64,000 nucleotides of DNA from assembly GCA_903901425.1 (NCBI GenBank), contig CAIURC010000158.1, positions 1 to 64,000 of the forward strand, given 5' to 3'. Shown here in pieces: positions 3,325-29,071 of the stretch (positions are counted from its first letter, which is position 1; the number at the start of each line of letters is the position of its first letter). The notes below the pieces were generated by a model. It did no database searches. It was not told the origin of the DNA and saw only the letters and a list, made by a program, of their open reading frames with translations. The translations under genes and the position numbers were made by a program. This DNA is from an uncultured Spartobacteria bacterium (lineage in GTDB: Bacteria > Verrucomicrobiota > Verrucomicrobiia > Chthoniobacterales > Chthoniobacteraceae).

Positions 3325-4290
3325 CTACTGGAGCCCCTTCAAACGCGCGATCAGGAAATCGGCCATGGCAGGGTACTTCGGCGTCTCTGATCCGGGAAAA
3401 ACCAACTCGCAGGGCACCTGCAGCGCGTCACACCGCTCCTTGAGCTTAACCCCAAAATTGGCTGAATGAACCGGGTCCCTCTCCGGCTGCCCGAGCGCGG
3501 GCGGCGTCTGGTAGTAGAGCCCCGTCGGGGGATCGTCCGGGGTCAAGAGATGGTAGGGCGAGTACTCCTCGATCCATGGCAGCAACCGGTCCCGGTCCGC
3601 CAAAAAAACCTCGTGCGGCATCAGGTTCCGTTCCCGATCTCCCCGGATGCCGAATCCGTTGTAGCCATGCACGTTGGTGGGCATCCACTCCCGGATCTGA
3701 CGGGGATCCAGAGACGTCTGTCCCCGGTGCGCCCCCACGCAAAGAAGCCGGGTGGATTCCCGCGCCACAGGGTCGCTGCTGGCAGGATCTGCAAGGTCAT
3801 CATGGTAAGCAATCCAAAGACTGGTACAGCCCCCCGCCGAACCACCACAGGCAGCCACCCGGGTCTTGTCGACGTTCCATTCCGCTGCCTTATGCCTCAA
3901 AAACTGGATCGCGCGCGCACAGTCGAGCATCGGCCCGCGCACTGGCGGCACCTCACCATCCGCGGTCGCTTCCAGAATGAACCGGTATTCCACCGAGGCC
4001 ACAGAAACCCCGTTTTTCAATGCCGCGGGGAGCACCATGTTCAAATACATCAACCGGTCGCCTCCGGTCCATGCCCCGCCGTGAATGTACACGATCAACG
4101 GCGCCGGAGCCTCCGTCTCCGCCTTCCAGAAATGGAGCACCTGTTTGGGATGTTTTCCGTAGGCCACGTCAGCAAAGGTCGGCGGCGGCAAAGCTGGGGC
4201 GGAACGCACCGGTTCGGCCTCAACGCGTTGCAGAACACACCACAGCATTCCAAAGCCAATCATCACGGCGAAAATAGGGGGGATTTTCAT
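3325..4290 (-). CDS. secreted alpha/beta hydrolase, BD-FAE/esterase-lipase type
   Basis: A predicted 321-residue esterase. After a hydrophobic signal peptide (MKIPPIFAVMIGFGML) comes YIHGGAWTGG, the oxyanion-hole HGG motif, and then CGGSAGGCTS, the GxSAG nucleophile elbow. The open frame extends 16 codons further upstream, but the ATG at 4290 is preferred: GGAAGAG lies just upstream and the signal peptide starts there. Relatives remove acetyl or feruloyl groups from plant polysaccharides or act on small esters. The gene is convergent with the DUF1501 gene. The substrate cannot be read from sequence. Confidence 0.85.
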   Translation of the reverse strand: MKIPPIFAVMIGFGMLWCVLQRVEAEPVRSAPALPPPTFADVAYGKHPKQVLHFWKAETEAPAPLIVYIHGGAWTGGDRLMYLNMVLPAALKNGVSVASVEYRFILEATADGEVPPVRGPMLDCARAIQFLRHKAAEWNVDKTRVAACGGSAGGCTSLWIAYHDDLADPASSDPVARESTRLLCVGAHRGQTSLDPRQIREWMPTNVHGYNGFGIRGDRERNLMPHEVFLADRDRLLPWIEEYSPYHLLTPDDPPTGLYYQTPPALGQPERDPVHSANFGVKLKERCDALQVPCELVFPGSETPKYPAMADFLIARLKGLQ

Positions 4291-5011: not shown

Positions 5012-5881
5012 ATGCGCTTCCTGGCTCTGCTCTTCCTCCTCCAAGGCATCTCGGCTGCCGCCGAGACCCGCGACCTGATCCTGGTTGCCGGCCAATCCAA
5101 CGCCGTCGGTTTTGACGCCCGCGCCGAGGATCTCCCCGCCGATCCCAAGGACGAACAAACCCTTTTCTGGTGGCGCGTCGGCGACCCGCCTCCCGACGAA
5201 TTCGACGGCACCAGCGCCCGCCAGTGGACCCACCTCCAGTTCCAGCCACGTACCCCGGCAAAACCCAGTGAAAACGGGCAGAAAATCCCGCGCCAGTACG
5301 GCAACTTCAGCGCCGGTTCCAAGGGCGGCTTCGGCCCGGAGATCGGCCTGGTCCGCACACTTGCCGCCCGCGAAAACCGGCCCCTGGCAGTGATCAAGAC
5401 CGCATTCAGCGGCACCTCCGTTGCAGGCGACTGGAATGTCCATCTTGCCGGTGCCGACGCGTGCTACCGCGCACTCATTGAGGAAACCAGAGCTGCACTC
5501 GACGCCGCAAAGAGCCGGGACATTCTTCTCCGGCCCCGCGCGTTTGTCTGGGTCCAGGGCGAAAGCGACGCCAACCCCAAAGACGCACCCGCCTACGCTG
5601 AAAATCTGAGTCAAATGCTCGTCCGCCTCCGGACCGACCTTGCCGCACCGGACATGGTTCTCCTCCTTGGCGTCAACACGCGGTTCGGCAACGGAAAAAA
5701 CCCGTTCATGCCCGTCATCCTGGAAGCCCAGAAGAAAGTTGCCGCCACGCTTCCGCACACCCGCTACGTGGACACCACCGGAGCCGAGACCCTGGCTCCA
5801 ACCCACACCCATTTCACAGCCGCCGGCACCCTTGAAATTGGACGCCGATACGCCGAGACCCTGCTCGATAAACCCCAATGA
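5012..5881 (+). CDS. secreted SASA-family (sialate O-acetylesterase-like) carbohydrate esterase
   Basis: 289 residues starting with a signal peptide (MRFLALLFLLQGISAAAE), then the family block DLILVAGQSNAVGFDAR with the GQSN nucleophile serine. VWVQGESDA in the middle and a late TGAETLAPTHTHF segment supply the remaining SGNH-type landmarks, with a likely catalytic His near the end. Predicted to remove O-acetyl groups from sugars outside the cytoplasm. No Shine-Dalgarno sequence is visible because a C-rich tandem repeat precedes the ATG. The frame stays open upstream into that repeat, so the start is less certain than the family. The stop overlaps the next ATG (ATGA), implying translational coupling. 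Confidence 0.85.
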   Translation: MRFLALLFLLQGISAAAETRDLILVAGQSNAVGFDARAEDLPADPKDEQTLFWWRVGDPPPDEFDGTSARQWTHLQFQPRTPAKPSENGQKIPRQYGNFSAGSKGGFGPEIGLVRTLAARENRPLAVIKTAFSGTSVAGDWNVHLAGADACYRALIEETRAALDAAKSRDILLRPRAFVWVQGESDANPKDAPAYAENLSQMLVRLRTDLAAPDMVLLLGVNTRFGNGKNPFMPVILEAQKKVAATLPHTRYVDTTGAETLAPTHTHFTAAGTLEIGRRYAETLLDKPQ

Positions 5882-6552
5882 AACTCGCCCTCTGCCTCCT
5901 CCTGCCACTCCTCGCCCCACTTGCGCATGGCGCTGAGGCCGACACCTTCAGCGTCCGCGAGGATTTCGGACCCGGGTTCGACTCCAAAAAGTTCCTGACG
6001 ACCATCCCCAACAAAAACACGTCCGTCCGCGACGGCGTCCTGTGGACGCACGGCTCCAGCGGCGGCAAATACCCGCCCATGGTCTACCTCGCCCTCGACG
6101 GCAAAGACCTGACTCTCTCCTTCCGATACCGGCATTTGGAACCGGGCGGCATGCTCTGGCTCTTTGTGGATGGCGACGACGGCCACGGCTCCGTTGACCA
6201 CATGCTCCGGGTCCGCCTCAACCGGGACTCGGTGGTCTTGCAGATCGACGCCCATTCCCCAGACCCCGCACATCCGCTCCGTCAAAACACCCGGCCCGCC
6301 GATCCGGTCAGCAAGGTCTACCGTACCAACGAGTTTTTTCCCGCGGAAAAGGTGGACCTTTCCTCCAGCACCTGGCGCACCGTCCAACTCCGGTTCAAGG
6401 GCGACACCGTGGACATGGCAGTGGAAGGGCTCTGGACCCGGCAACTCAAACGGCCCAACTTCGATGCCACAAAGCGCAAACTCCTCTGGATGCAGAACGG
6501 GGGCGAAAAAGGCATCGAGATCGATGACGTGGTGGTGACACCAACGCCCTGA
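5878..6552 (+). CDS. secreted laminin-G/DUF1080-like protein of unknown function
   Basis: 224 residues with a signal peptide (MKLALCLLLPLLAPLAHG). Beta-rich stretches (LTLSFRYRHLEPGGMLWLFVDGDDGHGS, WRTVQLRFKGDTVDMAVEG) resemble jelly-roll domains that bind or cleave glycans, such as 3-keto-disaccharide hydrolase-like folds, but no catalytic motif is recognised. It overlaps the upstream SASA-family gene by 4 bp and is probably co-translated with it. A damaged second copy of its 3' half lies at 9545-9879. The C-terminus KGIEIDDVVVTPTP is typical of this secreted family. Function unknown. Confidence 0.75.
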   Translation: MKLALCLLLPLLAPLAHGAEADTFSVREDFGPGFDSKKFLTTIPNKNTSVRDGVLWTHGSSGGKYPPMVYLALDGKDLTLSFRYRHLEPGGMLWLFVDGDDGHGSVDHMLRVRLNRDSVVLQIDAHSPDPAHPLRQNTRPADPVSKVYRTNEFFPAEKVDLSSSTWRTVQLRFKGDTVDMAVEGLWTRQLKRPNFDATKRKLLWMQNGGEKGIEIDDVVVTPTP

Positions 6553-7119: not shown

Positions 7120-9327
7120 ATGAAAACCCATCCATCCAATCTGAAAACCTGCGGCGCATTCGCCGCGTGCCTGCTGCTTGGAGCCACCCTTGGTTTTGAG
7201 GGGCTTGCTTTTGGGGATTCGCCCCGGAACACCTCTGGAACCAGTCCTTCAGTTGCACTGGCACAGGCCTCCTATGAGCTGGGCTACAACGGACCCTCCT
7301 CGCTCTTCACAGGAACCAAAATCCAAACCTACATGGGCTTGCTGGTCATCAACCGCCCAAGCCCGGGTGACAATTACTGGTACAGGCTTCCCTACACCGT
7401 CGAAATCACGGGCGCGCTGCCACCCGGATTGAGTCTGGTTCAAAACACGGGCAACGGGGATCTGGCCCGGATTGAAGGCACGCCCACCGAGGCCGGTACT
7501 TTCACCGTCCAACTCCGCGGGATCATGGAGGATGGATTTACCACCTCCACAACCGCTCTGACTTTCACCATCGCAGACCCCCGCAATTCGGATCTGAAAC
7601 CCACGCTATGGCCCTGCGCTCCCAAACCCGAGGGGATTTCCGGCATTCTTGGCGCTGTTGGCTTCCAGTCATCCGCTTCCTACACGTTCGCGAATTTGGG
7701 CAGCCTCCTCACGGTGGAGACGGAGGGCCTTCCTGAAGGCATCAAGGTTGACCCGGCCTCGGCCGAAGATCCGAGTTGCTCATTCTACGTGGTGGGAACA
7801 GCCAAGGAGGGAACTTACCCTTATGTGCTCCGATTCAAAGGGGCTGACGGCCAACCTTTTGGGGAGGTGACCGGCACTCTTGAGATCCTGCCTGCGGATG
7901 CCGCCAAGGTCTACTCCATCACCGCCTACTTCGGCCCCCCGCTCCGGCGAGGCAACGCCAATCCCACCCAACCGTTTTTCTGGCTGTGGAATGGGGGCGG
8001 AGAGTACGTGGATTCCGTCAACAACCAGGCGGTCGCGTTCGAAATTGAGGGACTCCCAGAAGGCCTGTCCTACCAAGACAGGCAGCTGCGAGGGACTCCT
8101 CAACAGTCCGGAACCTTCAGCATCACGGTGTACGCCAAGGACTCAGAGGGCAGCGAGCTTGCAAAATCCACCTTCGGCCTTGAGGTTCAGGAGCCCATTT
8201 CAGCAGAGCAGGCCGCAGGCACCTTCGACTCCCTCGTCGACCGCAGCCCGTTGAATAATGACACCGGAGGCCGTCTCCTGCTCACCCTGACCCGTGCAGG
8301 CAGGGTCACCGGAACCCTGATTCACAAGTTCCAGAGATATCCCTTCAATGCAAGAAACGCGAGTTTCACTGGAGGCAACCTGCGAATCACCCCTCCGAAC
8401 TCCGGCCTCGTGATCGAGGGCTCCATCGAGGACTCCGGCGAAGCCGAGTCTTACCTCGAAAATGGAGTTAGAATCCCGAGCTACGCATTTGCAGGGTTGA
8501 TCAAAGAATCGAGCACTGAGGACACCTCCATCGCGGCAGTATCCGGCCGGCGCGCCGTCACCAAGACCGCCGCCGACCCGAGCCCCTATGCCAGCCCGAA
8601 CCGGGTAAACCTCATTTTTGTCCGGAATCCATGGAGCGGTGAAGGGCAACCAGCTGGCACTGGGTTTCTCAGTTACAGAGTCGCGCCGACCGGGGTTGTG
8701 ACCGGAACCTACTGGGGGGCTGATGGAAGCGCCCCGGTCTCGGTGGCAACCCGGATCAGCCACACAGAATCCGGCGGCCAGTTTCCGCTCTATCTGGTGA
8801 CCCAGAACGACAGCGGAAAGGGCTCCCTGAGTGCCTCCCTTTTCCTCAACGCAAACGGCGACTCTGCAGGATTGGGAAGCTTCTTCCAACCCGCCAGCAA
8901 CAGGGGCTCCTTCCCGGACGGAATCAGCATGGTGAACTACACTGGCGTCATTGGTTCGCGCTACATCCAGCAACCGGACAATCTGAATCTGCTCGGATTG
9001 GAGGAAGGCATTCAGAACGCGGAACTCGAGCTCGAAGGAGCCGGCTTGGACGAGGACCTCGAGGTGCCCGTGACGGTCGGCAACAACTCGATTGCAGCCA
9101 GCGCCACACCGGAAGTCTCCGCAGTGCAACTCAAGCTCGACAGGAAAACCGGCATCGTCACCGGAACCATGCGAGTCAAAACGGCGGGTGCGCAGGCTCC
9201 CCAGACCGTACAGTTCCGGGCAATGGCGAATGCTCAGAGCGGAGGCGCCGTGGGGCACTTCATCACACGGGGCGCTTCCAAGAGCATCAAAGCCGGCGCG
9301 ATCCAGCTCGCGCCTAAATCAAACTAA
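7120..9327 (+). CDS. large secreted putative-Ig (He_PIG-like) protein
   Basis: 735 residues with an N-terminal signal sequence ending near residue 31 (GFEGLAFGDS). Three modules of the putative-Ig type follow. Their marks are ALPPGLSLV with IEGTPTEAGTFTV (about 87-140), GLPEGIKVDP with VVGTAKEGTYPYVL (about 190-260) and GLPEGLSYQD with LRGTPQQSGTFSITV (about 300-350). The remaining half is beta-rich, with internally similar GxVTGT motifs, and unassigned. No enzymatic motif or sorting signal (PEP-CTERM, LPxTG) is seen. Likely a cell-surface or secreted adhesive or structural protein. A strong terminator follows at 9356. Confidence 0.8.
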   Translation: MKTHPSNLKTCGAFAACLLLGATLGFEGLAFGDSPRNTSGTSPSVALAQASYELGYNGPSSLFTGTKIQTYMGLLVINRPSPGDNYWYRLPYTVEITGALPPGLSLVQNTGNGDLARIEGTPTEAGTFTVQLRGIMEDGFTTSTTALTFTIADPRNSDLKPTLWPCAPKPEGISGILGAVGFQSSASYTFANLGSLLTVETEGLPEGIKVDPASAEDPSCSFYVVGTAKEGTYPYVLRFKGADGQPFGEVTGTLEILPADAAKVYSITAYFGPPLRRGNANPTQPFFWLWNGGGEYVDSVNNQAVAFEIEGLPEGLSYQDRQLRGTPQQSGTFSITVYAKDSEGSELAKSTFGLEVQEPISAEQAAGTFDSLVDRSPLNNDTGGRLLLTLTRAGRVTGTLIHKFQRYPFNARNASFTGGNLRITPPNSGLVIEGSIEDSGEAESYLENGVRIPSYAFAGLIKESSTEDTSIAAVSGRRAVTKTAADPSPYASPNRVNLIFVRNPWSGEGQPAGTGFLSYRVAPTGVVTGTYWGADGSAPVSVATRISHTESGGQFPLYLVTQNDSGKGSLSASLFLNANGDSAGLGSFFQPASNRGSFPDGISMVNYTGVIGSRYIQQPDNLNLLGLEEGIQNAELELEGAGLDEDLEVPVTVGNNSIAASATPEVSAVQLKLDRKTGIVTGTMRVKTAGAQAPQTVQFRAMANAQSGGAVGHFITRGASKSIKAGAIQLAPKSN

Positions 9328-9896: not shown

Positions 9897-11315
9897 TTAC
9901 TCCTTGCCCGGCCGTCCACCACGCTCCAGAGCACGCGGCCGGTTCGGATTCCCCGGCTTCGGCTGAATGTGCGCCCTGAGATGTCTTGCGCCCTCCTCTT
10001 CCAAACCCGACACAGACGGTTCACCCGCTCGGTTAGAGTATTCGCCTTCCGTTGCCACATACAGCTCCCGACTCGTGTCTGACCATTCGGTGTAGCGAAA
10101 ACCTTCAGTCCGAACGGAACGCCCCAACACGTCCGCATCCGCCGCCGGATTGTAGTGGTAGATCATGCTGAAGGCTCGGGCCTCGCGATTTTCTTCCCGG
10201 CCCAAAATCGCGGGCACCAGGCTTTTGCCCTCCAGTCCTTCTGGCACAGGCAATCCCGCGAGCTCCACAATCGTCGGATACACATCGAGCAACTCCACCG
10301 GTTGACGCACAACCCGCCCCTTCGGAATCCCCGCGCCGGCCATCAGCAGCGGAACCCGGGTCCCGTTCTCAAAGGTGGTCAGCTTGGACCAGAGTCCCTG
10401 GTGGTCACCGAGATGAAATCCGTTGTCGCTGACCAGCACGACCAAGGTCGTGGCCCAGAGATTGCGCTGGTCCAGCACCTCCAGAAGCAGGCCCACATTC
10501 TCGTCTGTGAACGAAATGCAGGCGTAATACCCGCTCACTGCCGATGCCCGGGAATCCGGGGCCGCAAATCCAGACAACTCGGTCTGAAGCGCAATCGGAG
10601 GCACCTTCTCCATCGCCGGCTCTTCAAAAGCAGGAATGCTGGACGCCGGATACAGGTCGTAAAACCGGCGGGGCGCCGTCCAGGGCAGATGGGGTTTGTG
10701 CAGGCCTGCTGCCAGAAAAAAGGGCGTCCCCCGGTCCGCGCACTCCCCAATGTGCCTGGCGATTGTGCGAACGTTCAGACCATCCCGGGTCCGGCTTCCA
10801 TCGGAATCGAGCACCCATGGCTTGGGAGTGCCGTTCCCGCCTTTGTACCGGTCCTTGAGCGCGGCGTTCTCCCCATCGTCCTCGCCGTCACCGTCGCTGT
10901 AAACGTCCCAGGAAAGGGCGTCCTGATGGCTCCTCGCATGGTGCACCTTGCCCGCCCCAGCACAGAAAAATCCGTTCTGATGGAACACCTGGGGTAGCAG
11001 GACGGCGGCGGGAAACGCTTCCCGAGGCTTGACCTTGAGATCGTAAACCCCGCCGGCCTCAGGCCGCCGGCCACTCAGAAGCGAGACCCGGCTGGGATTG
11101 CACAGGGCGTACTGACAGTACGCCCGGTCAAAGCGGACACCTCTGGCCGCAAGCCGGTCCAGATTCGGCGATTGGACCGTTGGATTCCCATAACATCCGA
11201 GGTGCGTGTTGAGGTCGTCCACCACAATCAGCAGCACGTTGGTTCGGGGCGCAGCCATTGCCACCGAACCGGTCAAAAAAAGAGTCAGCAAAAAAAGGCG
11301 CCCCATAAGTGTCAT
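9897..11315 (-). CDS. secreted sulfatase, iduronate-2-sulfatase-like
   Basis: 472 residues after choosing the ATG at 11315 (MTLMGRLFLLTLFLTG, signal peptide). The frame is open about 59 codons further upstream, but that extension would overlap the next gene and looks non-coding. The N-terminus VLLIVVDDLNTHLGCYGNP supplies metal-binding aspartates. CNPSRVSLLSGRRP is the C-x-P-S-R formylglycine site. Later, VLVSDNGFHLGDHQ gives the second metal-binding set. This arrangement, with QYALCNPSR, is typical of iduronate-2-sulfatase-like S1 enzymes. It removes sulfate esters from carbohydrates outside the cytoplasm. No formylglycine-generating enzyme is encoded in the window. Confidence 0.93.
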   Translation of the reverse strand: MTLMGRLFLLTLFLTGSVAMAAPRTNVLLIVVDDLNTHLGCYGNPTVQSPNLDRLAARGVRFDRAYCQYALCNPSRVSLLSGRRPEAGGVYDLKVKPREAFPAAVLLPQVFHQNGFFCAGAGKVHHARSHQDALSWDVYSDGDGEDDGENAALKDRYKGGNGTPKPWVLDSDGSRTRDGLNVRTIARHIGECADRGTPFFLAAGLHKPHLPWTAPRRFYDLYPASSIPAFEEPAMEKVPPIALQTELSGFAAPDSRASAVSGYYACISFTDENVGLLLEVLDQRNLWATTLVVLVSDNGFHLGDHQGLWSKLTTFENGTRVPLLMAGAGIPKGRVVRQPVELLDVYPTIVELAGLPVPEGLEGKSLVPAILGREENREARAFSMIYHYNPAADADVLGRSVRTEGFRYTEWSDTSRELYVATEGEYSNRAGEPSVSGLEEEGARHLRAHIQPKPGNPNRPRALERGGRPGKE

Positions 11316-23573: not shown

Positions 23574-24941
23574 ATGCAATTCATCGGCCTCGTCGGCATC
23601 GCGGTTTTTCTCTTGGTTGCCTTCCTCCTGTCCCGAGACCGTCGCCAGATCCACTGGCCCACGGTCGGCTGGGGCATCTCCCTCCAGTGGATCCTCGCCG
23701 TCATCGTGCTGAAGGGGCCGTGGCTTTCGGATTCCCTCTCTTTCTTGCCCTTCCCACACGGCTCGGCATGGGGCGTGGGAGCCTTGCTCTGCGCTCCGGC
23801 TCTGCTGGGCCGCTTCCTCCAGCTCCGGAACAAGCTCCTGAACCGGGTCCTCCTCGCCCTCGCGTTCCTCGGCCTGCTGCGGGGCAACCTCGTGGGAGCC
23901 GCCTTCGACCAACTCCGGCTCGTGGTTGACGGCCTCATGCAACACGCCGCCGCAGGATCGGCTTTTGTATTCGGCAAACTGAGCAGCCCGGTGGAAGGCG
24001 TCTTTGCGTTCTCGGTGCTGCCGGTCATCATCTTTGTGGCGAGCCTGTTTTCGGTCCTTTACCATCTGGGCCTGATGCAGGGCGTGGTGAAAGCCGCCTC
24101 GGCCGTGATGGGCCGGTTTCTCAAAGTGTCAGGTGCCGAGAGCGTGAGCGTGGCCGCGAGTATCCTCATGGGGCAGACCGAGGCCCCGCTGACGATCCGG
24201 CCATTCCTCTCCGCACTGACCCGGAGCGAGCTGATGGTGATCATGACTGCCGGCATGGCCCATGTCTCGGGCAGCATCATGGTGGCCTATGTCCAGATGG
24301 CGCACGTGGACATCATTCATCTGCTCACCGCCGTGCTCATGACCGCCCCAGGCGCCGTGGTGATGGCCAAACTGCTGGAACCCGAGACCGAAATGCCGGC
24401 CACCGGTTCCCACGTGGAGGCCCGTCTTGAACGCCAGAGCGCAAACCTTTTGGACGCCGCCGCACGGGGCGCGGTGGAGGGCGGACAGTTGGCGTTCCAT
24501 GTGGCCGCGGTGCTCGTGGCGTTCGTGGCGTTGGTTGCCCTGGTGAACGGCGTCCTCGGCATGGCCGCCCCCGGGCTCAGCCTTGAATCGATCCTTGCGG
24601 TGATATTCAAACCCGTGGCGATTCTGATGGGCGTCCCGCAGGCCGATGCGGGGACGATTGGCAGTCTTCTTGGCAAACGGATGGTGCTCAACGAATTCGT
24701 CGCGTTCAACGACCTCGGCCGGATTGCACCGGAGGCGATCACCGACCGCGCACGCACAATCGCCACGTTCGCCCTGTGCGGCTTCGCCAATTTCGGCTCC
24801 ATCGCGATCCAGATTGGCGGCATCGGCGCGCTGATCCCGGAACGCCGCGCCGACCTTGCGCGGCTCGGTCTGCGCGCAATGCTCGCCGGGACACTAGCCA
24901 ACTTTCTGTCCGCCTGCATCGCCGGGATTCTGGCGGGATAA
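23574..24941 (+). CDS. concentrative nucleoside transporter (NupC/CNT family)
   Basis: 455 residues, polytopic membrane protein. The hallmark GAESVSVAASILMGQTEAPL sits at about residues 184-203, and FVAFNDLGRI, which binds nucleoside and ion in CNT proteins, is near residue 378. NFGSIAIQIGGIG is the late conserved block. It imports nucleosides with a cation gradient. The ATG at 23574 directly begins the first hydrophobic helix. The neighbours do not suggest a pathway. Confidence 0.93.
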   Translation: MQFIGLVGIAVFLLVAFLLSRDRRQIHWPTVGWGISLQWILAVIVLKGPWLSDSLSFLPFPHGSAWGVGALLCAPALLGRFLQLRNKLLNRVLLALAFLGLLRGNLVGAAFDQLRLVVDGLMQHAAAGSAFVFGKLSSPVEGVFAFSVLPVIIFVASLFSVLYHLGLMQGVVKAASAVMGRFLKVSGAESVSVAASILMGQTEAPLTIRPFLSALTRSELMVIMTAGMAHVSGSIMVAYVQMAHVDIIHLLTAVLMTAPGAVVMAKLLEPETEMPATGSHVEARLERQSANLLDAAARGAVEGGQLAFHVAAVLVAFVALVALVNGVLGMAAPGLSLESILAVIFKPVAILMGVPQADAGTIGSLLGKRMVLNEFVAFNDLGRIAPEAITDRARTIATFALCGFANFGSIAIQIGGIGALIPERRADLARLGLRAMLAGTLANFLSACIAGILAG

Positions 24942-25131
24942 CGGCTGCCCGGCCACGCAGCCTGCTCAATGTCGTCTTCCGCCGCGATTCAGCCCGGCAA
25001 GCATGAGCCAGCCGTTGCGAAGGCGGGATCGAGCAAAAGCAATGGGCAAGGTTCCGGAAAAGATCCGAAGCTTTCTGGTCGGGATCAGGAGCGCTCAAGA
25101 GTAAGTGTGTCCAATTTTGCACCCTGCTCCC

Positions 25132-25350
25132 CAGAAACAGCCACAAACTACCGAAGCTGCCATGGAGGCCTGCATTGAACGCGCCCTAACGGGCGGCGTC
25201 ACGGTGGCGGCGAAAGACGCGGCGCTTCAAGAGCCGACGCCGGACTATGGCAGCAACGGCTGGAAGCGCGGGAAGCCGGGCAACTTCAACGCGGAGTTCG
25301 CGGTGGATGAGACGATGCTGTGGCAGTTCCTGGTGAGCACGCAGGCATTG
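25132..25350 (+). pseudogene. hsdR 5' remnant (type I restriction subunit R), first copy
   Basis: About 70 codons match the start of HsdR proteins: TTEAAMEACIERALTGG, then GWKRGKPGNFNAEFAVDE and LWQFLVSTQ. The resemblance then stops and the frame ends at 25392, a few bases inside the next gene. No hsdM, hsdS or helicase region remains. The 190 bases before it (24942-25131) hold no gene that can be supported. The remnant marks a lost type I restriction-modification locus. Confidence 0.75.
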
Positions 25351-25385
25351 CGACGGGTGAACACTCTCTTATACTACCCTTTTCG

Positions 25386-26582
25386 ATGCTGACCCCAGAA
25401 CAAGTTCAAGAAGTCCTGACATCGACCGAAGCCGACCGGATCGAACGGACGCGCTCGACGAAGGACACGGACAAGTTTCGGGAAGCAATCTGCTCCTTTT
25501 CCAATGACATGCCGGGACACGGCAAGCCGGGCTACCTGCTCATCGGGCTGGAGGACGACGGCTCGTTGTCGCCGGGCTTCGTGGCCACCGACGAGATTCA
25601 GAAGCAGTTCGCCAGCTACCGGGATGACGGGCAGATCCTGCCGCAGCCGATGCTCTCCGTTTACAAACAGCCGCATCCCAGCGGCGGCGAGTTCCTCGTG
25701 GTGGAAGTGCAGCCCAGCGACCTGCCCCCCGTCCGCCACCGGGGCCGCATCCACATCCGTGTGGGACCCCGCAAAGCCACGGCCAGCGAATCCGATGAGC
25801 GCAGGTTGCTGGAGCGGCGGAGCGCGAAATTCCGCACCTTTGACATCACGCCGTGCGCTGATGCGACTTTGGAAGACCTCGATCTGGACCTGTTCATGAA
25901 CAGTTACCGGCGAAAAGCCATTGATCCTGAGGTGATCAAAGAAAATGGCAGAGAACTGGTGCTGCAGCTTGCAGCGCTCCATTTCTACAACCTGAACCGG
26001 GACTGCCCGACGAACGCTGGATGCATCGTCTTTGGCAAAGACCCTTTGCTTCGATACCCCGGCGCATACGTGCAGTATGTGAAGTTCTCCGAAACGGACA
26101 TGGCATCGCAGGTCGTGGAGTCGAAGCAGTTCAAAGGCAATCTGCTGGAGATGATGTGGACGTTGAACCGGTTCATCGAAAGCTGCTTCACGGAAAAGCC
26201 CGTGTATGAGGGCGGGTTGAAGGAGCGCATTCTTTGGGATTACCCGGAGGACGCCATGCGCGAGCTGCTGGTGAATGCTGTGCTGCACCGCGATTATCAG
26301 TCCAACTCGCCCACAAGGTTCTACGTCTTCCCGGATCGCATCGAGATTCAGAACGCAGGAGGGCTTTACGGGGAAGCCAGCCCGGAGAACTTCCCCCTGG
26401 TGAACGATTACCGAAACCCCGTACTGGCGGAAGTGCTGATGGTCATGCGCTACGCCAATCGGTTTGGTCGTGGTATTGCTCGTGCCCAAGCCCTGCTGAA
26501 GCACAACGGCAATCCGCCGGCAGTGTTCGAACATGGCACGGGTTTCTTCAAGGTTACGATATTCAAGCATCCCGAGCGTTAA
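25386..26582 (+). CDS. Schlafen AlbA_2 ATP-binding protein
   Basis: 398 residues. The N-terminal AlbA_2 (divergent AAA-4/Schlafen-type) domain shows a SNDMPGHGKPGYLLIGLEDDG block and HRGRIHIRVGPRKATAS. The C-terminal part shows DAMRELLVNAVLHRDYQ, an ATP-binding helical pattern like HATPase_c_4, and RIEIQNAGGLYG with NPVLAEVLMVMRYANRFGRGI. Relatives often sit inside type I restriction-modification operons. The ATG at 25386 begins the AlbA_2 domain. It lies between two hsdR 5' remnants, so it may be the surviving part of a defence island. Molecular role not established. Confidence 0.85.
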   Translation: MLTPEQVQEVLTSTEADRIERTRSTKDTDKFREAICSFSNDMPGHGKPGYLLIGLEDDGSLSPGFVATDEIQKQFASYRDDGQILPQPMLSVYKQPHPSGGEFLVVEVQPSDLPPVRHRGRIHIRVGPRKATASESDERRLLERRSAKFRTFDITPCADATLEDLDLDLFMNSYRRKAIDPEVIKENGRELVLQLAALHFYNLNRDCPTNAGCIVFGKDPLLRYPGAYVQYVKFSETDMASQVVESKQFKGNLLEMMWTLNRFIESCFTEKPVYEGGLKERILWDYPEDAMRELLVNAVLHRDYQSNSPTRFYVFPDRIEIQNAGGLYGEASPENFPLVNDYRNPVLAEVLMVMRYANRFGRGIARAQALLKHNGNPPAVFEHGTGFFKVTIFKHPER

Positions 26583-26585
26583 CTC

Positions 26586-26642
26586 ATGCCCTCGCAAACC
26601 ACCGAAGCCGCCCTGGAAGCCTGCATTGAACGGACCGGCTAG
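26586..26642 (+). pseudogene. hsdR 5' remnant, second copy (18 codons then stop)
   Basis: The frame MPSQTTEAALEACIERTG ends in TAG. At DNA level it is closely similar to the start of the first remnant at about 25142-25180 over roughly 38 bases. Together the two flank the AlbA_2 gene as imperfect direct repeats. This copy retains the correct ATG 3 bases after the AlbA_2 stop, as in an intact operon where hsdR would follow. Confidence 0.7.
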
Positions 26643-26709
26643 AACGTGTCCGGCGTTTGGGTCAGAGGTCAGACATTGGGGGTCAGGGTGCAAATCTTTA
26701 CAGTTTCCC

Positions 26710-26774
26710 TCTCTCCTCTGGCCCCAATCCGCTCTCCAACCGTTTCCCGCAGCCCGGCCGAAAAAACAAATGCC
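26710..26774 (+). repeat. 65-bp dispersed repeat, copy 3
   Basis: Third copy of the family at 15749-15814 and 16706-16770, same orientation, beginning TCTCTCCTCTGGCCCCAATC and ending GAAAAAACAAATGCC. It lies right behind the hsdR remnants and the AlbA_2 gene and before the end of the feo operon. Confidence 0.85.
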
Positions 26775-26852: not shown

Positions 26853-27008
26853 TCAGGCCCGTTTTTGGCTGGCTGACAGGGAATTCTTTTTCCCGCAGCA
26901 ACTGCCACACGCCTTTCCAGAGCCCTTCCGGAGAGCGCTCCAGACGAAAAATCCGCAGGCGAGACCGATGCCGAGGCAGACCAGGAACTGATCGAGCATG
27001 GGGTTCAT
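26853..27008 (-). CDS. FeoB-associated Cys-rich membrane protein
   Basis: 51 residues: one hydrophobic helix (QFLVCLGIGLACGFFVWSAL) followed by KACGSCCGKKNS, the Cys cluster typical of the small FeoB-associated proteins. The ATG at 27008 overlaps the feoB stop by 4 bp (ATGA), which fixes the start and puts it last in the feo operon. These proteins are thought to help FeoB at the membrane; the mechanism is not established. Confidence 0.85.
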   Translation of the reverse strand: MNPMLDQFLVCLGIGLACGFFVWSALRKGSGKACGSCCGKKNSLSASQKRA

Positions 27009-29071
27009 TGGAATCCGAGGAGGCGGCCTCCCTGATAGACGACCAGCGCGGCGGTGTAGGCGAGGGCAGTCATGTAAGCGAGCTGGAACAGAGGCCACCG
27101 CCAGCCGTTGCTCTCCCGGTACACAATCGCCAGAGTGCTGACGCACTGCATGGCCAGCACGTAGAACACCATGAGTCCGATACACACCAGCGGCGTGTAA
27201 ACCAGACTGCCGTCCTCCCGCTTTTCCTCCCGCATCGTGTCCCGCAACGGCGCATCGTCGTCCTCCTCCTCCAGATTATACACGATCTTCATCGTGCCCA
27301 CAAAAACCTCCCGCGCTGCAAACGAGCCCACGAGGCCAATCCCGATTTTCCAGTCGTACCCGAGCGGCCGGATCAGCGGTTCCATTGCATGGCCCATCCT
27401 TCCGGCAAAACTCTGCGCAATTGCCTCTGCCGGTGTTGCCTCCGGGTTCTTGGGCTTCGGATAGGTCGCAAGCGCCCAGAGCAGCACCGAGAGCGCCAAG
27501 ATCACCGTCCCGGCCCGGCGCAGAAAAATCCCGGCCCGTTCGAGCATCCGGAGTGCGATGGACCGAGGGGCGGGCCAGCGGTACGGCGGCATTTCCAGAA
27601 GGAGCATGGGCGTCTCGCTCCGGAGCAGGGTCTTCTTGAACAGCCAAGCCATCGTGAATGCCGCCAGAACGCCGAGAACGTACATGGACACCATCAGCCC
27701 CACTTTCTGCCAGACGGCAGCTGCCGGAAGCAGGACCGCGATCATCAGTGAATAAACCGGCAACCGGGCCGAGCAACTCATCAACGGCGCCACCAGCATG
27801 GTTACCAGACGGTCTTTGCGCGATTCGATGGTCCGGGTCGCCATGATCCCGGGAATCGCGCACGCAAACGAACTCAGCAGCGGGATGAACGACTTGCCGT
27901 GCAGGCCCACCCGGGACATGAGCCGGTCCATCAAAAACGCCGCGCGCGCCATGTACCCGCTGTCCTCCAATAACCCGAGGAAAAAGTAGAGAATCAGGAT
28001 CTGCGGCAGGAAAATCACCACCCCGCCCACGCCCGCCACCACGCCGTCCACGAGCAGACTCCGGAAATCGCCTTCCGGCACCCGCCCGGAAAGCCAATCC
28101 CCCAGAGCACCAAACCCGGCATCGATCCAGTCCATCGGCTTCTGAGCCACCCAGAAGATGCAGAAGAACATGAGGCCCAACGTTCCCAGGAACGCCAGCC
28201 AGCCCCAGAGCGGGTGCGTCAAAAAACTGTCGAGCCGGTCAGACCAGCCGGCGTCTGGCTGTTCAGGCCGTTTCACCGCCGCATCGCAGATCTCCTGGAT
28301 CCACGCGTACCTGGCATCCACCGGAGCGGAAACCGGATCCAGTCCCTGCAAACGCAGCCTTTCCTGCGCCTCACGGACCGCGCCCAAGATCTTCGGATTG
28401 TACCGGCCCGGTTCGTCGCCGTTTTCCCCGTGCAACGCCAGCAGGAGCAGCGCCTCCGCCTCCGCTGCCCTCGAATCCAACCGCGCAGCGAGTTGCGCCA
28501 CCTCGCGCCGGAGGGCCTCGGGAAGGGGCGCCTGCGCGCGGGGAACACTCAGGGGATTTCGCGACACCGCCTGGCGCAGTTCCACAAGGCCTTTGCCTGC
28601 AACGGCCACCATCGGCAACACGGGCACCCCAAGACGCGCCTCCAAAACCGCCGGGTCAATCCGGATCCCGGCTTTTTCAGCCATGTCCACCATGTTGAGG
28701 ACCACGACCACGGGGAGCCCGAGTTCCAACATCTGGGCCACCAGATACAGGTTCCGCTCCAGGTTGCAGGCGTCCACCACGGCCACCACGATGTCCGGCC
28801 TTGGCTCGCCCGGCAACCGCCCCAGCAAAACGTCCCGGGCCACCGCCTCGTCCGGGGACCGCACCTGGAGGCTGTAGCTGCCCGGGAGGTCCACCAGCGT
28901 CATCGGTTCGCCGTGGCTTCCGTGGAAACTGCCTTCCTTCCGTTCCACCGTCACCCCGGGATAATTCCCCACCTTCTGCCGCAACCCAGTCAGGGCATTG
29001 AAAAGCGTGCTTTTCCCGCAATTCGGGTTGCCCGCAATTGCCACCCGCCGGACTGGGTCAGAAACGCTCAT
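27005..29071 (-). CDS. feoB: ferrous iron transport protein FeoB
   Basis: 688 residues. The N-terminal G domain has GNPNCGKSTLFNALTG (G1, residues 14-29), TLVDLPGSYSL (G3) and VVLNMVDMAEK (G4). The C-terminal membrane half has the Gate motifs FLPQILILYFFLGLLEDSGY and SCSARLPVY. It imports Fe(II) across the inner membrane coupled to GTP hydrolysis. It lies after two feoA genes and overlaps the small Cys-rich gene, so all four form one operon. Confidence 0.97.
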   Translation of the reverse strand: MSVSDPVRRVAIAGNPNCGKSTLFNALTGLRQKVGNYPGVTVERKEGSFHGSHGEPMTLVDLPGSYSLQVRSPDEAVARDVLLGRLPGEPRPDIVVAVVDACNLERNLYLVAQMLELGLPVVVVLNMVDMAEKAGIRIDPAVLEARLGVPVLPMVAVAGKGLVELRQAVSRNPLSVPRAQAPLPEALRREVAQLAARLDSRAAEAEALLLLALHGENGDEPGRYNPKILGAVREAQERLRLQGLDPVSAPVDARYAWIQEICDAAVKRPEQPDAGWSDRLDSFLTHPLWGWLAFLGTLGLMFFCIFWVAQKPMDWIDAGFGALGDWLSGRVPEGDFRSLLVDGVVAGVGGVVIFLPQILILYFFLGLLEDSGYMARAAFLMDRLMSRVGLHGKSFIPLLSSFACAIPGIMATRTIESRKDRLVTMLVAPLMSCSARLPVYSLMIAVLLPAAAVWQKVGLMVSMYVLGVLAAFTMAWLFKKTLLRSETPMLLLEMPPYRWPAPRSIALRMLERAGIFLRRAGTVILALSVLLWALATYPKPKNPEATPAEAIAQSFAGRMGHAMEPLIRPLGYDWKIGIGLVGSFAAREVFVGTMKIVYNLEEEDDDAPLRDTMREEKREDGSLVYTPLVCIGLMVFYVLAMQCVSTLAIVYRESNGWRWPLFQLAYMTALAYTAALVVYQGGRLLGFQ

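Follow-up and report, generated by a model that had tools for sequence, protein, structure and literature searches.

Type I restriction-modification (RM) loci of Campylobacter carry R-linked ORFs (rlo genes), which comprise several gene families linked to hsdR, and we know of no scar repeats in these loci. Defence genes including DarTG2 lie between hsdS and hsdR in the E. coli RRDM island, where the gap has been described as a potential recombination hotspot (PMC12255303), prrC sits within the EcoprrI type I locus (PMC12707154), and hsd-linked defence islands are transferred by lateral transduction and homologous recombination (PMC12829572). The loci described below resemble DarTG2/RRDM and prrC/EcoprrI in having defence-related modules inside a type I locus. 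They differ in that several modules are stacked with truncated hsdR starts (hsdR') between them; such repeated starts are absent from the available text of PMC12255303 and PMC12707154. Integron gene cassettes are likewise a row of cargo modules parted by a repeated element, whereas here a neighbouring gene's 5' end serves as the repeat, and no integrase was noticed among the ORFs read in L030. In sum, accessory genes between hsdS and hsdR have already been described, and the literature covered yielded no account of repeated hsdR-start scars, most subscription papers lying outside that coverage.

The block that led to these loci lies in a 64,000-nucleotide stretch of DNA (the window) from an uncultured Spartobacteria bacterium. 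The window belongs to contig C158, one of 224 in a 5.1-Mb genome that is 96% complete.

Results

The block and its parts

The block occupies about 1.5 kb and is flanked by a gene for a nucleoside transporter (23574-24941) on the left and by feoB (27005-29071, minus strand) on the right. It consists of an hsdR 5' fragment, an intact SLFN_AlbA_2/HATPase_c_4 gene (here called AlbA_2) and a second hsdR start (Table 1), a row that had been proposed in a first-pass annotation and was confirmed by tblastn, profile domains and alignment limits. Over 79 aa the left fragment is 78% identical to the intact L030 HsdR (tblastn, E 2e-38), with an alignment score of 161 against a shuffle maximum of 23. The right piece corresponds to hsdR nt 1-47/48 and matches the first 16 codons of L030 HsdR at 100%. 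The near-identical direct repeats of about 38 bp seen around the gene in the first pass also held up, as 34 of 38 nt are the same in 25144-25181 and 26595-26632, and the best 38-mer match across 60 shuffles was 22. L030 HsdR has the HSDR_N, ResIII, SWI2_SNF2 and T1R_D3 domains, and hsdS lies upstream of it. Judged by these alignments, both pieces in the window are what is left of hsdR 5' ends from a type I restriction locus. The limits of the pieces needed revision. The left one, placed earlier at 25132-25350, kept its identity as hsdR and lost those limits: homology starts at about 25141-25144 and not at 25132, since a RAYT-type end occupies 25116-25133. The 18-codon start at 26586-26642 stands as an ORF, with hsdR homology in only 16 of its codons.

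Table 1. Features of the block, in window coordinates
Feature	Position	Strand	Remarks
RAYT (Y1_Tnp) transposase C-terminal remnant, 33 codons	25003..25101	+	matches elsewhere in own genome
Open frame containing the hsdR fragment	25105..25392	+	stop 25390-25392 overlaps AlbA_2 start (ATGCTGA)
RAYT-type terminal sequence, left	25116..25133	.	inverted to the end at 26677; inverted pair I3, 89% complementary
hsdR 5' fragment (hsdR nt 10-212)	25144..25346	+	joined to AlbA_2 upstream region at 25346/25347
Promoter-like site TTGCGA-16-TATACT, 5' of AlbA_2	25348..25375	+	weak by itself
SLFN_AlbA_2 / HATPase_c_4 gene, open, 398 aa	25386..26582	+	profile domains, alignment
Second hsdR start, 57-nt ORF	26586..26642	+	16 hsdR codons (26586-26633), then stop
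RAYT-type terminal sequence, right, containing GGTCAGGGTGCAAA	26677..26694	.	

The AlbA_2 gene

PF04326 (SLFN_AlbA_2) scored 45.6 bits against a cut-off of 25.3, and PF13749 (HATPase_c_4) was likewise above its cut-off. No match was found in ncbifam, and PADLOC named no anti-phage system, giving partial matches to Argonaute-related models only. An AlphaFold model of middling confidence (pLDDT 74, pTM 0.52) had 3lmm (DIP2311) as its best solved fold match, followed by human Schlafens and GHKL kinases, and these matches agree with the two domain calls. The DIP2311-like SLFN_AlbA_2 protein (PDB 3lmm) is the best match in both fold and sequence, although AlbA_2 is only 18% identical to it in the fold alignment. 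From its domains and fold, AlbA_2 is predicted to target nucleic acids in the manner of Schlafen proteins and to bind ATP through a GHKL-like domain; its family and neighbours suggest that this targeting may serve defence. Relatives of AlbA_2 occur in 25 phage records and 98 plasmid records, all at less than 60% identity.

Pairwise dN/dS between the window AlbA_2 and five relatives (L030, L031, L035, L039 and L040) was 0.07-0.12, with silent sites near saturation. These values bear on purifying selection, a check proposed in the first pass, and AlbA_2 retains every invariant column of 13 aligned sequences. The cell probably still produces the protein, using the gene's own start codon in translational coupling with the hsdR' frame. 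The promoter-like site of Table 1 occurs once in the stretch tested against a shuffle mean of 0.5, and can also be found by eye in L030 and L040.

A ParA-like ATPase gene directly follows AlbA_2 in nine loci (L032, L033, L034, L036, L037, L038, L041, L042 and L044), which include archaeal and acidobacterial metagenome-assembled genomes; the pair is a conserved two-gene module. The window AlbA_2 has no ParA partner, unlike those of L036-L038. The AlbA_2 stretch of L043 has stops and many bracketing repeats.

Module rows in related type I loci

One scan of genome contigs for relatives of AlbA_2 gave 15 loci, most of them from metagenome-assembled genomes; the close relatives that carry a name belong to the Verrucomicrobiota. 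The comparison with relatives proposed in the first pass did yield an intact type I locus: L030 has hsdM (assigned from sequence and position, without a profile scan), hsdS and a full hsdR. It contains four hsdR 5' copies, those at 3770, 6225 and 7750 being truncated and that at 9201 full (1005 aa). The row starts with hsdM, hsdS, an AAA_21 and DUF4276 pair (HEC-01A/B) and an hsdR' of 85 codons; it continues with PtuA and a 140-aa PtuB-like protein (Septu), an hsdR' of 27 codons, and a TIR (CAP12-like) + Methyltransf_33 protein; and it ends with an hsdR' reaching nt 212, AlbA_2 and the full hsdR. No two of the modules that these hsdR copies separate are alike. The PtuB-like protein beside PtuA (5464-5886) may be shortened, the profile having about 214 aa.

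Shorter rows were found in two loci. The order in L037 is hsdM, a YhcG-like nuclease gene (identified via the profile scan of L039), hsdS, a 329-aa gene, AlbA_2, ParA, an hsdR' of 222 nt, AbiEi/AbiEii and hsdR, and L039 has an hsdR' of 67 nt, AlbA_2 and hsdR. Intact hsdR and no scar were found in L031 (with AAA_13), L035 (with GmrSD) and L036 (with AlbA_2-ParA).

Junctions

Eleven loci could be tested upstream of AlbA_2, namely the window and L030-L040, with L033 set aside because its sequence begins at the edge of a contig. An hsdR piece lies directly upstream in five (the window, L030, L038, L039 and L040) and is absent in six (L031, L032, L034, L035, L036 and L037). In four of the five (the window, L030, L038 and L040) the hsdR/AlbA_2 junction falls at hsdR nt 212-214, and in L030 the nt-212 junction coexists with an intact hsdR. 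In a comparison by 60-nt steps, identity between the window and L030 is 85-95% within the hsdR piece (25161-25340) and 80% at the step that spans the junction; it is 77-90% along the first 430 nt of AlbA_2 and about 63-82% thereafter. Because identity is mostly 80-95% on both sides, the joint is probably shared by descent. AlbA_2 itself looks mosaic: the first 430 nt resemble L030 far more than the remainder does, and the C-terminal end is nearest to L031. Because identity to L030 drops after the first 430 nt, we infer that alleles recombined inside the gene near 25820.

A clear hsdS 3' remnant was present in two of nine junction stretches (104 nt before PtuA in L030; 39 nt before AlbA_2 in L039; 0/300 shuffles each). 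In the other seven, the window included, such a remnant was indistinguishable from chance, and an hsdS source for the window's ATTGCGA junction was matched equally well by all of 300 shuffles. Both clear remnants continue the reading frame of the hsdR' in front of them, and the stop falls 8-9 nt ahead of the next start. The L030 hsdR' frame upstream of AlbA_2 ends in the ATGCTGA overlap, as in the window, and that upstream of the TIR gene stops 13 nt before it. With so few cases, the frame-keeping at the scars may be luck; it fits a tightly packed operon.

The row in L030, the common nt-212 junction and the hsdR-hsdS fusions argue that the hsdR fragments are the joints of a stacked array of accessory modules. 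We hold with moderate confidence that the block in the window represents a single unit from what was once a type I locus, with stacked, mostly defence-related modules between hsdS and hsdR.

The first-pass annotation had instead proposed collapsed tandem type I loci, each with the AlbA_2-hsdR order. A type I RM source, the AlbA_2-hsdR order within a type I locus (L030, L031, L035 and L039) and a loss that left an intact gene are retained from that proposal; the order as a property of each tandem locus is not, as AlbA_2 is not the repeated module and the modules of L030 differ. This account starts from a tandem pair of complete loci, in which a deletion running from the first hsdR into the second hsdS or AlbA_2 left hsdR'-AlbA_2-hsdR'. 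Such a deletion leaves exactly the in-frame hsdR'-hsdS' fusions of L030 and L039, and explains both. However, no tandem complete RM loci were present in any locus examined; in L113, hsdM is single and the second hsdS copy is a 94-nt 3' piece only. Further, the window junction, common with L030, predates the window's own collapse: because the same junction stands beside an intact hsdR in L030, the left fragment would be an older joint of the module stack and not a product of the final collapse. We consider collapse of a tandem pair rather unlikely.

Sequence history of the hsdR copies

Among the three comparable L030 hsdR copies (two truncated, one full), 2/13, 3/9 and 3/12 changes were nonsynonymous, where about 76% would be expected without constraint (P 7e-6, 7e-3 and 2e-4). 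The copies are about equally close to L036 hsdR and to one another. Since the differences are mainly silent and L036 hsdR is equally close, the L030 scars seem to be distinct functional alleles that were united, rather than drifted local duplicates; alternatively, the excess of silent changes could reflect constraint on the leader frame. The window fragment appears to carry a constrained history as well, because only 8 of its 21 changes relative to L030 are nonsynonymous (P 2e-4). A tree of the hsdR' copies had weak support, the sequences being too short.

Units outside RM loci

Like the window, L034 (AlbA_2-ParA, then an hsdR start), L038 and L040 have hsdR pieces without an adjacent intact hsdR in the retrieved stretch. 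L038, from the named strain Brevifollis gellanilyticus NBRC 108608, has a right-hand hsdR piece of 13 nt that is borderline (2/300 shuffles). Its unit is bracketed by direct repeats of 133 bp (7707-7839 and 10226-10358; 91% identical) that are unrelated to hsdR. The repeats around the L040 unit (7726-7854 and 10366-10494; 129 bp, 98%) correspond to a subtilase gene's 3' end. With both units bracketed by direct repeats of about 130 bp, a mobile step is possible for units outside RM loci. The L040 unit is decayed (hsdR'-AlbA_2-hsdR'-AbiEii-like-hsdR'), and its AlbA_2 (8001-8882) has an in-frame loss of about 105 codons.

The repeats of L038 and L040, lying outside RM loci and unrelated to hsdR, would fit insertion of AlbA_2 units into gene ends with duplication of a 67-256 bp target, the hsdR 5' end being just a favourite target. 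Yet no recombinase was noticed inside the L038 and L040 units, repeat lengths vary widely, and 91% identity suggests a foreign allele and not a fresh duplication. Target duplication would also leave the hsdS remnants unexplained, and we regard it as improbable.

RAYT-type borders

RAYT termini at both ends of the block were absent from the first-pass annotation. The left border consists of the RAYT 33 C-terminal codons and an end, and the right border of an end only. The 33-codon tail has six more matches in the window's own genome (54-88% identity, weakest E 1.5), and contig C196 holds an intact 354-aa Y1_Tnp ORF with the same tail, flanked by the same kind of ends. GGTCAGGGTGCAAA has 9 exact copies in the own genome, and 17 were found with at most one mismatch versus 1 for the reversed control. 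About 60 bp (including CCAATCCGCTCTCCAACCGTTTC) of the segment beside the right-hand end (26695-26770) also occur near another RAYT start, on contig C58 (L012).

The ends cut hsdR at nt 10 (left) and nt 48 (right) and point away from the block. Because they sit at both borders, facing outward, the RAYT remnants mark the limits of the surviving block; they may be either the cause of the loss of the rest of the locus or later invaders. That RAYT elements carried the hsdR'-AlbA_2-hsdR' block to its present place would account for such ends at both borders, but outward-facing ends are also what two neighbouring remnants would give. Of 43 genomes searched for the nucleoside transporter, three have it (G000, the window's own; G002; G047); comparison with the congener G002, whose transporter stands without feoB or hsdR after it, gave no empty site. 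We give RAYT carriage little credence.

An assembly artefact is extremely improbable: the assembly is of metagenome type, with 224 contigs and repeats near some contig ends, but the window contig spans 103 kb and the same junction occurs in independent assemblies, including that of B. gellanilyticus NBRC 108608. An intact hsdR elsewhere, raised in the first pass as a possible source of the pieces, did not appear when the own genome was searched with the full L030 HsdR, which returned this fragment, one distant hsdR (contig C65, 28% identity) and nothing more; misassembly or an intact local hsdR was rejected on the strength of this search together with the common junction in independent genomes. 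Contig C61 carries a second relative of AlbA_2, at 26% identity.

Distribution of the scars

Among 387 genomes of the phylum, 21 had a similar HsdR N-terminus, which was truncated only in the window; the match in G169 lay at the edge of a contig. The 68 genomes of the L030 host's family gave 10 matches at E 0.1, and weak matches to the HsdR N-terminus came from G507, G511, G521 and G531. When 30 hsdR loci were compared with their own upstream DNA, truncated copies were found in three, all among the six intact loci of this lineage, and in none of the 24 loci of other lineages, several of whose contigs end a few kb upstream. None of six plasmid type I loci had truncated copies, and the start of one E. 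coli hsdR allele occurred at a single place in 56/56 matching records. Since the counts outside were 0/24, 0/6 and 0/56, scar arrays appear, as far as we looked, to be a feature of one hsdR lineage within the loci examined. With 3/6 in the lineage and 0/24 in others, they do not seem to be a general way of type I loci.

Discussion

The row in L030, the shorter rows in L037 and L039, the common junction and the two hsdR'-hsdS' fusions can be read directly from the loci; how this anatomy arose is what we infer. Under the stacked-module reading, a new module would be gained when the first 67-256 nt of the resident hsdR became joined to the hsdS 3' end or the promoter of another locus's module, the right side of each added module keeping an hsdR start. 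Joining would involve an illegitimate event between hsdR and hsdS or the module, with homologous hsdR on the right, and could proceed by deletion between tandem loci or by one-sided integration of incoming DNA. The outcome would be modules separated by truncated hsdR starts, with the full hsdR last. In the window, the RM genes and other units would have been lost, leaving the block with RAYT-type ends now at both borders.

A bolder proposal, which we offer tentatively and think doubtful, is that hsdR 5' ends form an integrase-free cassette boundary. Because an hsdR start follows every module, recombination of the RecA type between the 67-256 bp repeats is conceivable, and could delete, exchange or re-insert the defence modules that lie upstream of hsdR. 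The scar frame would be kept open for its role in coupling translation to the module that follows, and escaped units (the window, L034, L038 and L040), with hsdR ends still attached, might seed new loci.

The growth of defence islands outside mobile elements is poorly understood. In a locus whose joints are all scarred, one could read off the sequence in which modules were gained and test the joining step directly. If the scars do provide handles for homologous pairing, RM loci would have turned themselves into docking sites for defence genes. More broadly, hsdR starts that mark the joints of a defence-module stack would give a hint at how bacteria accumulate defence genes.
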